This document shows positions 52,923 through 54,264 of a DNA stretch of 64,000 bases, in pieces. Both the position numbers and the translations under genes were made by a program. The DNA lies in assembly GCF_012932565.1 (NCBI RefSeq), contig NZ_JABBYJ010000001.1, positions 930,001-994,000 of the forward strand, in the 5' to 3' direction. The notes beneath the pieces were generated by a model. The model was not told the origin of the DNA. It searched no databases and was given only the letters and a program-made list of their open reading frames with translations. The number at the start of each line of letters is the position of its first letter. Within the stretch, counting starts at the first letter, position 1. The stretch comes from Sneathiella limimaris (GTDB taxonomy: Bacteria > Pseudomonadota > Alphaproteobacteria > Sneathiellales > Sneathiellaceae).

Positions 52923-54119
52923 CTATTCCAAGGCCTCACCCAGATCCGCGATCAAATCATCGACATTTTCAAGGCCGACAGACAGACGAACCAAGCTATT
53001 GGTAATACCCAGTTCTGCTTTCAGGTCATCACTGACGCTGGAATGGGTAGTTGTCGTTGGATGGGTGATCAGGCTTTTAGCATCGCCAAGATTATTACTG
53101 ATATCCACCAAGGATAATTTGTTCAGGAAGGCGAATGTCTCTTCCTGCGAGCCTGCCAGTTCAAAACTTACCAGCGTGCTGCCGCGGCGCATTTGCTTCT
53201 TGGCAAGTTCTGCTTGTGGATGGTCATCCCGACCGGGATGGATCACCCGTTTGACTTTGCTGCTTTGGGACAGGAACTCCGCAATCTTTTCTGCGTTATC
53301 CGTTTGCTTTTCAACCCGAAGCTCCAATGTCTCCAGACCCTTCACCAGGTTCCAGGCGTTAAACGGGCTGAGGGCAGGGCCTGTATGCTTGGCATAAGGA
53401 AACAGGTAGTCTTCAACAAACTCTTCCGATCCAAGGACGATCCCGCCAAGGCAACGACCCTGACCATCGATATGCTTGGTCGCGGAATAGACCACCACAT
53501 CAGCACCCAGCTCCAGTGGTTTCTGGTAGATGGCCGTGGCAAATACGTTGTCTACAATTACCCGGGCGCCAACCTTGTGAGCCAGCTCGGATACTGCAGC
53601 GATATCCACAATTTCCAGCGTTGGGTTTGACGGTGTTTCCAGAAAGACTGCAGATGTGGGTTTGGAGAGGGCCGTTTTCCACTGATCCAGATCCGTTCCA
53701 TTGACCAGTGTCACCTCGACACCAAAGCGGGGCAAGACTTCCTCAATAATATAAAGGCAGGATCCAAACAGGGCCTTTGGTGCTACAACATGATCGCCCG
53801 CTTTGACAAAACTCATCAGGGCAGAATTAACAGCGGCCATCCCGCTCGCCGTTGCCATGGCTGCTTCCGCACCTTCCAGCAGACGCATTCTGTCTTCAAA
53901 GACACTGATCGTTGGGTTGGCATAACGGGAATAGATATAGCCCTCGTTTTCGCCTTTAAAACGGCCAGCGGCTTCCTCGGCACTGTCATAGACAAAGCCG
54001 GAATTCATGAAAATTGCTTCGGATGTTTCTTTGAATTGGGAGCGTCTTAATCCGCCCCGGACAAGCTGGGTTGCAGTCCTGTTGTCTTGTCCTGCTGCTT
54101 TCTTGTCTAATTTAACCAT
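52923..54119 (-). CDS. metZ: O-succinylhomoserine sulfhydrylase
   Basis: A 398-residue PLP enzyme of the Cys/Met metabolism family that makes homocysteine directly from O-succinylhomoserine (or O-acetylhomoserine) and sulfide. SATKHIDGQGRCLGG holds the PLP lysine; RYANPTISVFEDRM and ITHPTTTTHSSV are typical. A SAM-II riboswitch in its leader supports the methionine role over cystathionine gamma-lyase. A short hairpin (TGGCAGA/TCTGCCA, 52905-52920) follows its stop without a T tract. Confidence 0.94.
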   Translation of the reverse strand: MVKLDKKAAGQDNRTATQLVRGGLRRSQFKETSEAIFMNSGFVYDSAEEAAGRFKGENEGYIYSRYANPTISVFEDRMRLLEGAEAAMATASGMAAVNSALMSFVKAGDHVVAPKALFGSCLYIIEEVLPRFGVEVTLVNGTDLDQWKTALSKPTSAVFLETPSNPTLEIVDIAAVSELAHKVGARVIVDNVFATAIYQKPLELGADVVVYSATKHIDGQGRCLGGIVLGSEEFVEDYLFPYAKHTGPALSPFNAWNLVKGLETLELRVEKQTDNAEKIAEFLSQSSKVKRVIHPGRDDHPQAELAKKQMRRGSTLVSFELAGSQEETFAFLNKLSLVDISNNLGDAKSLITHPTTTTHSSVSDDLKAELGITNSLVRLSVGLENVDDLIADLGEALE

Positions 54120-54123
54120 TTCT

Positions 54124-54169
54124 AACCTCGAGGTTGTAGGACCCCGACCTCAGTCAGGGTTCTCTCGAG
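54124..54169 (-). promoter_or_regulatory. Candidate expression platform of the SAM-II riboswitch
   Basis: Between the aptamer and the metZ start, two CTCGAG copies (54169-54164 and 54132-54127) can pair and enclose the hairpin CCCTGAC/GTCGGGG (54159-54153 with 54148-54142). The second CTCGAG overlaps the metZ ribosome-binding GAGG (54129-54126) and is the centre of a perfect 12-bp palindrome, AACCTCGAGGTT (54124-54135). The folded form would hide the ribosome-binding site. The structure is read by eye. Confidence 0.55.
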
Positions 54170-54230
54170 CCCCGACCTTTTAGCGTTTCTATTAACGTGG
54201 CCGCAAGCCGGTCGGCACAAATCACCACGA
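54170..54230 (-). promoter_or_regulatory. SAM-II (SAM-alpha) riboswitch
   Basis: The transcript reads CGTGGTGATTTG, then GCCGACC, then GGCTTGCGGCCACG, TTAA, ACGCTAAAAGGTCGG, matching the conserved SAM-II elements in order. P1 is CGTGG (54229-54225) with CCACG (54200-54196). The pseudoknot is CCGACC (54215-54210) with GGTCGG (54177-54172). SAM-II switches off methionine genes when S-adenosylmethionine is high; its place before metZ is classical in Alphaproteobacteria. Confidence 0.93.
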
Positions 54231-54236
54231 GGCTGA

Positions 54237-54264
54237 AATATACGCCTCGTCTTTTCTCTGTCAA
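54237..54264 (-). promoter_or_regulatory. Promoter of metZ
   Basis: TTGACA (54264-54259) and TATATT (54242-54237) with 16 bases between. The expected start of transcription lies at about 54230, exactly at the 5' edge of the SAM-II aptamer. Confidence 0.75.

Follow-up and report, generated by a model that had tools for sequence, protein, structure and literature searches.

The metZ leader of Sneathiella limimaris raises the question of why a SAM-II riboswitch should carry one strand of its pseudoknot twice, the second time between the aptamer and the ribosome-binding site of the gene. The original prediction took the second copy for a decoy strand directed at the aptamer. From analysis of the surrounding 64,000 nucleotides (the window), of related genomes and of SAM-II loci at large, we favour with moderate confidence a different reading: a switch that turns metZ OFF by means of an expression platform which would be descended from an intrinsic terminator and now probably acts on translation. 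All leader features described below lie on the minus strand.

Aptamer, promoter and gene

The Rfam scan gives a match to SAM_alpha (RF00521) at 54238-54160 which covers the whole model (positions 1-79 of 79) with 67.4 bits (E 5.6e-13) against a gathering score of 36, thus bearing out the classical SAM-II aptamer that had been claimed. It is the only match to this covariance model in the 3.66 Mb genome. Apart from the aptamer, the window yields a single Rfam hit above gathering thresholds, a tRNA gene (17205-17123, minus strand). The pseudoknot helix P2 is formed by CCGACC (54210-54215, from the sequence and the Rfam alignment) with the complementary GGTCGG (54177-54172). A sigma-70-like promoter (54237-54264) comprises TTGACA at 54264-54259, a 16-nt spacer and TATATT at 54242-54237; it scores 11/12 matches in a consensus scan as against 0.3 expected in shuffles, and TTGAC is retained 5' of the other leaders examined. 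Since this promoter ends at 54237, the transcript is expected to start at the aptamer. The downstream ORF (54119-52923, ATG at 54119) specifies the 398-amino acid MetZ, O-succinylhomoserine sulfhydrylase (TIGR01325, 578.2 bits; cut-off 510). The aptamer precedes a methionine/SAM gene and the organism is an alphaproteobacterium; judged by sequence and structure, the leader is a SAM-II member.

Organization of the leader

Copy 1 of the repeated strand (GGTCGGGG, 54170-54177) contains the P2 3' strand and would double as an antiterminator or anti-sequestor strand. It is followed by a first CTCGAG (54164-54169), a possible anti-Shine-Dalgarno (anti-SD) sequence, and by ACCCTGAC (54153-54160), the 5' arm of a present or former terminator hairpin, which can pair with either copy. 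The 3' arm is copy 2 (GGTCGGGG, 54142-54149), which is a terminator arm in relatives and repeats copy 1 exactly, 28 nt downstream, as had been said. Next come TCCTACAA (54134-54141), an eroded U-tract occupying the place of TTTTTTT plus one base in 19 of 23 Sneathiella leaders, and CCTCGAGG (54126-54133), which holds both a second CTCGAG (54132-54127) and the SD sequence GAGG (54129-54126), 6 nt 5' of the metZ ATG. The two CTCGAG copies do flank the hairpin, and the second does cover the SD, as had been said. Direct occlusion of the SD (54129-54126) within P2, whose 3' strand is at 54177-54172, is not the arrangement here. By itself the repeated word is unremarkable, occurring four times in the window where 1.92 are expected, but exact 8-mer repeats at such a range (second copy 12-60 nt further on) are rare, being found at only 77 of 63,930 window positions.

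The genus set comprised 24 Sneathiella genomes including that of the window; the riboswitch is present in 23, the exception being G016, which is 56% complete. The original prediction looked to relatives for conservation of copy 2 and of both CTCGAG sequences. Copy 2 is found in all 23 leaders and the second CTCGAG in 22 (it is absent in G013), but the first occurs in just two, those of the window and G008. Copy 1 is exact in 21 leaders and differs by a single base in G005 and G021. These two variants (GGTCTGGG in L012 and AGTCGGGG in L030, respectively) weaken both the P2 and the antiterminator pairing, and could be sequencing errors or relaxed variants.

The first CTCGAG is one base removed from the CTCGCG or CTCGTG of G014, G004, G010 and G023. 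The hairpin formed by copy 1 and the 5' arm is capped by a GNRA tetraloop in these four and in G005 (GCAA), and in the window its loop is likewise formed by the first CTCGAG (UC-GAGA-GA, GNRA type). This CTCGAG may be a chance variant and not a selected anti-SD. YCTCGA is present in 23/23 Sneathiella leaders. The octamer around the SD, CCTCGAGG, is exact in 21 of the 23 and occurs in all of them if one-base variants are included, which exceeds what GAGG needs; through its CCTCGA the octamer is able to pair with the TCGGGG of copy 2. A mini-ORF, ATGCCTCGAGGATAA, was dropped after inspection by eye, its stop being missing in many relatives.

Terminators in the relatives and loss of the U-tract

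An intrinsic terminator is called in 19 of the 23 Sneathiella leaders and is absent in the window genome (G000), G006, G008 and G018. The 19 have TTTTTTT after copy 2 and a 5' arm that reads AACCCTGATC, AACCCTGACT or AACCTCGACT. The bases after copy 2 are TCCTACAA in the window, TTAATATG in G006 and G018 and TCTAATAT in G008, and T makes up seven of the eight in every one of the 19 leaders as opposed to two, four, four and four in G000, G006, G008 and G018. Both arms of the hairpin are intact in all four. Between the window and G008 there is no difference in the stretch running from copy 1 into the hairpin loop, in copy 2 or in CCTCGAGGTTAGA, save for a single A inserted in the loop, whereas the former U-tract site differs. 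The hairpin seems to be retained for a purpose other than ordinary termination.

In a tree of concatenated rpoB, rpoC, rpsL, rpsG, fusA and gyrB, a clade is made up of G000, G008, G014 and G018 (SH-aLRT 100, bootstrap 99); in a separate analysis G006 falls beside G018, and G023 beside G014. Terminators are present in G014, G023 and the lineages around the clade, and we therefore take the loss of the U-tract as derived. The metZ tree unites the four U-tract-less leaders (support 0.918). The concatenated data gave three different placements of G014, none of which is rejected by AU tests at 0.05 (lowest p-AU 0.056), and with this ambiguous branching order inside the clade there may have been one loss or two. 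A pair of leaders from another genus, L137 and L134 (G197 and G292), have terminator-like hairpins ending in CTTGTTAA and CTTTTTGA, respectively, which is perhaps another case of U-run decay.

The intact arms also leave room for a hairpin that still terminates transcription, by way of a poor tail or with the help of Rho, so that the platform would have remained transcriptional. Structures without a canonical U-tail seem to be usable by some bacteria (PMC2258182), and G006, G008 and G018 do keep four T in the eight bases. The window, however, has two T where all 19 terminator types have seven, and neither detector called a terminator in its leader. One of these, a simple scan requiring five T in the tail, also missed the terminators in the leaders of two relatives, L006 and L021, likely because extension of the stem by G-U and A-U pairs into the T-run leaves four T. 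We consider continued termination unlikely.

Proposed competition between the strands

The role of the repeat was surveyed in 122 SAM-II loci (L001-L062 and L081-L140; 23 from Sneathiella and 99 others), which represent nearly all of the listed matches of at least 50 bits (G252:C95 was left out). A motif rule parsed 99 of them, and the 23 unparsed loci were dropped. Terminators were called in 83 of the 99, namely 19 of 23 in Sneathiella and 64 of 76 elsewhere; of the latter 64, 59 are clear of copy 1 and 56 are distinct. In these 56 non-Sneathiella loci copy 1 pairs with the 5' arm of its own terminator at a mean of -10.97 kcal/mol, compared with -10.08 kcal/mol when the loci are swapped; the observed mean is reached in 0/5000 permutations and in 1/5000 in a second run, kinship not being corrected for. 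The control pairings, under the same proviso on kinship, gave 35/5000 for P2 and 0/5000 for the terminator arms with each other. This is the signal that an antiterminator would leave, copy 1 taking the arm when outside the pseudoknot. A class-wide likeness between copy 1 and the terminator 3' arm beyond that of swapped loci is not supported, the longest shared substring averaging 4.54 against 4.43, with 98/500 swaps reaching the observed value.

Since copy 2 makes up the 3' arm of the terminator in 19 of the 23 Sneathiella leaders, the repeat is best read as competition for the 5' arm, and the two copies would be alike because both compete for it. The same count speaks against copy 2 having originated as a purpose-made decoy, and that part of the original prediction falls. 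Two mutually exclusive folds built from identical strands, which it also proposed, are supported. In the window the 5' arm pairs with copy 1 at -13.8 and with copy 2 at -15.1 kcal/mol. The 5' arm of the hairpin thus pairs with the P2 3' strand as well, as expected of a terminator platform. Copy 2 was further said to fit the aptamer strand as well as copy 1 does; its duplex is weaker (-12.4 as against -16.0 kcal/mol in the window). The idea of strand exchange stands, then, as regards the competing identical strands. Invasion of the aptamer by copy 2 is possible but not needed; it would use the weaker duplex, yet the window leader, folded without constraints, has this pairing in its minimum-energy structure.

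That fold, in which copy 2 is paired with the aptamer CCGACC and copy 1 with ACCCUGAC, is the chief argument for regarding displacement of copy 1 from CCGACC by copy 2 as the essential ligand-free event. The pairing of aptamer and copy 2 reaches 0.61 in the window ensemble, and across the class loci the P2 strand matches its own terminator 3' arm better than swapped ones (22/5000 permutations). The same ensemble calculation, however, gives at most 0.02 in the other 22 Sneathiella leaders, the duplex energies prefer copy 1 on the aptamer, and the class signal can arise indirectly from the other three pairings and may be their by-product. In addition, the fold opens P1, which in the metX SAM-II riboswitch is protected with and without ligand (PMC10907184). 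We regard an obligatory displacement of this kind as distinctly improbable, and prefer competition of the two copies for the 5' arm.

Accessibility of the Shine-Dalgarno sequence

The consequences for the SD were examined by folding with energy models that ignore pseudoknots and cotranscriptional order. In the window the SD is unpaired at 0.19 when copy 1 is held in P2 and at 0.80 when copy 1 is on the arm and copy 2 is held, in support of the predicted SD-hiding structure with copy 1 in the pseudoknot. The corresponding values are 0.01 and 0.70 in G008, and 0.63 and 0.64 as means of the 19 terminator-type leaders, although one of the latter, G011, has the contrast too (0.18 and 0.79). The U-tract-less G006 (0.44 and 0.30) and G018 (0.47 and 0.50) have no such contrast. 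With shorter sequences ending at the ATG the window and G008 give 0.20 versus 0.62-0.64. The stretch after copy 1 can form a perfect helix with the SD region of 6 bp in the window and G008, 5 bp in G006 and G018, and 3-4 bp in the other 19 leaders.

Two further results speak against such a switch. If copy 2 is left free while copy 1 occupies the arm, the SD of the window is only 0.46 unpaired, because the conserved CCTCGA is then open to pairing by copy 2; in the unconstrained ligand-free ensemble the SD is fully paired (0.00 unpaired), mainly with the P1 5' strand. The two platform folds, P2 being uncounted, come to -21.7 kcal/mol for the form that hides the SD and -23.7 kcal/mol for the one in which copy 1 occupies the arm and leaves copy 2 free. 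As these are nearly equal, stabilisation of P2 by SAM could tip the balance, and a translational platform in the window is plausible. We think it very unlikely that the platform is simply decaying, with metZ no longer controlled after loss of the U-tract and the CTCGAG match due to chance, for while G006 and G018 lack an SD contrast and a single substitution separates the first CTCGAG from a tetraloop, the aptamer still reaches 67.4 bits and the arms, the loop side and the SD region have been kept between the window and G008 though the U-tract site diverged.

Candidate anti-SD leaders elsewhere in the class

A scan of the non-Sneathiella loci found an anti-SD after copy 1 in L045, the metA-like leader of genome G255. 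In the family of G255, a different alphaproteobacterial family from that of the window, SAM-II is present in 28 of 31 genomes, and the anti-SD test covered 29 of 49 listed matches, 20 of which precede metA-like starts. An anti-SD:SD helix score of at least 8 was obtained for 10 of these 20 (1.96 expected by shuffling) and for none of the nine others (0.44 expected). The order in the metA-like leaders is copy 1, anti-SD (e.g. GGGCCTCC), hairpin and complementary SD (e.g. GGAGGCCC), again without a U-tract. Eight of the ten (L045:1459-1519, L220:1561-1620, L224:1460-1519, L225:1460-1519, L222:1465-1519, L216:1437-1519, L233:1561-1632 and L229:1459-1519) were aligned and folded, L214 and L218 being left out, and GGTCGGG recurs as copy 2 in four of the eight. 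Holding copy 1 leaves the SD unpaired at 0.00-0.12 in seven and at 0.46 in L229, and placing it on the arm gives 0.54-1.00. Since the eight were picked for having the helix, these folds illustrate and do not test the arrangement, which is likely to be an indirect translational SAM-II platform.

By the same score (at least 8) the helix is found in 4 of the 23 Sneathiella leaders (0.76 expected), L008 and L013 using the terminator arm, and in 4 of 75 loci of the rest of the class sample (2.38 expected), which is not clearly an enrichment; three of those 75 (L052, L109 and L112) come from G255-family genomes. In L004 and L055 (G058 and G283, of one genus) the terminator is nested in an anti-SD:SD clamp (TCTCCAGAA with TTCTGGAGG, and CCTCCA with TGGAGG), and a single SAM-II aptamer may there control both transcription and translation.

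A model for the metZ switch

In the ancestral form, represented by 19 of the 23 Sneathiella leaders, SAM would keep copy 1 in P2, the 5' arm would pair with copy 2 and transcription would end at the U-tract. Without SAM copy 1 would take the 5' arm as an antiterminator and transcription would continue; we do not claim the antiterminator reading as new. In the lineage of the window the U-tract has been eroded with both arms kept. When SAM is bound, the hairpin is predicted to bring the CTCGAG after copy 1 beside the SD region CCTCGAGG, and their pairing would hide the SD. Without SAM the hairpin of copy 1 and the 5' arm would draw the first CTCGAG into its loop and free the SD. The aptamer, the repeat, the terminator of the relatives and the loss of the U-tract with retention of the arms are seen directly in the sequences; the antiterminator role of copy 1, the hiding of the SD and its dependence on SAM are deduced from pairing energies and folds.

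A fuller version of this model we advance tentatively, as possible and somewhat short of probable. It comprises a passage, within the genus, from ending transcription to blocking translation through U-tract erosion, with the old terminator hairpin turned into the clamp over the ribosome-binding site, a near-balanced exchange among four strands in which either of the identical copies fits the aptamer strand as well as the hairpin arm, and occupation of the ligand-free aptamer by copy 2 as well, with the metA parallel perhaps reached by a separate route. If so, neighbouring species of the genus would show control moving from transcription to translation while the aptamer, hairpin and SD region stay almost unchanged, and the conversion of a switch could be dissected base by base. 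Repeated pseudoknot strands in SAM-II leaders would also be explained, since such a strand has to match the aptamer and the arm of the terminator alike, and SAM-II leaders lacking a U-tract would be worth checking for anti-SD platforms.

Comparison with known systems

A search that left most subscription papers outside its reach found no literature on Sneathiella and riboswitches together, and none on the SAM-II riboswitch and anti-Shine-Dalgarno under that term; within the same reach, the accessible parts of PMC3723493, PMC6152003 and PMC3764141 make no mention of a SAM-II antiterminator. In alpha- and betaproteobacteria SAM-II is reported to occur for the most part together with terminators (PMC2258182), many representatives have intrinsic terminators (PMC1273637), one of them being the S. 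meliloti metZ riboswitch (PMC9373788), and anti-RBS SAM-II elements are described in tandem arrangements (PMC9481103). A platform distant from the aptamer, which the original prediction called unusual, is by these accounts (PMC2258182, PMC9481103) not so.

With the terminator-type SAM-II riboswitches (S. meliloti metZ, PMC9373788; PMC1273637, PMC2258182) the window shares the aptamer, the metZ gene, a hairpin 3' of P2 with arms matching a terminator and the expected OFF logic. It differs from them in that its leader and those of three relatives have retained the hairpin without the U-tract, and in the complementarity of its SD region to the stretch after copy 1. The riboswitches with the SD in P2 (Sargasso Sea metX and S. 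meliloti metA; PMC10907184) have the same class of aptamer, and translational control has been proposed for them; in the window some 40 nt separate P2 from the SD, which an anti-SD would hide in an indirect way. In the tandem anti-RBS SAM-II arrangements (PMC9481103) and the SAM-II/SAM-V pairs a SAM-II aptamer is also followed by an anti-RBS, and related leaders likewise use both transcription and translation, but the window has a single aptamer and its platform derives from a terminator that close relatives retain. The metA leaders of the G255 family share with the window the order of copy 1, anti-SD, hairpin and SD and the same two predicted states; they differ from it in having anti-SD helices of 7-9 bp and in preceding metA instead of metZ.
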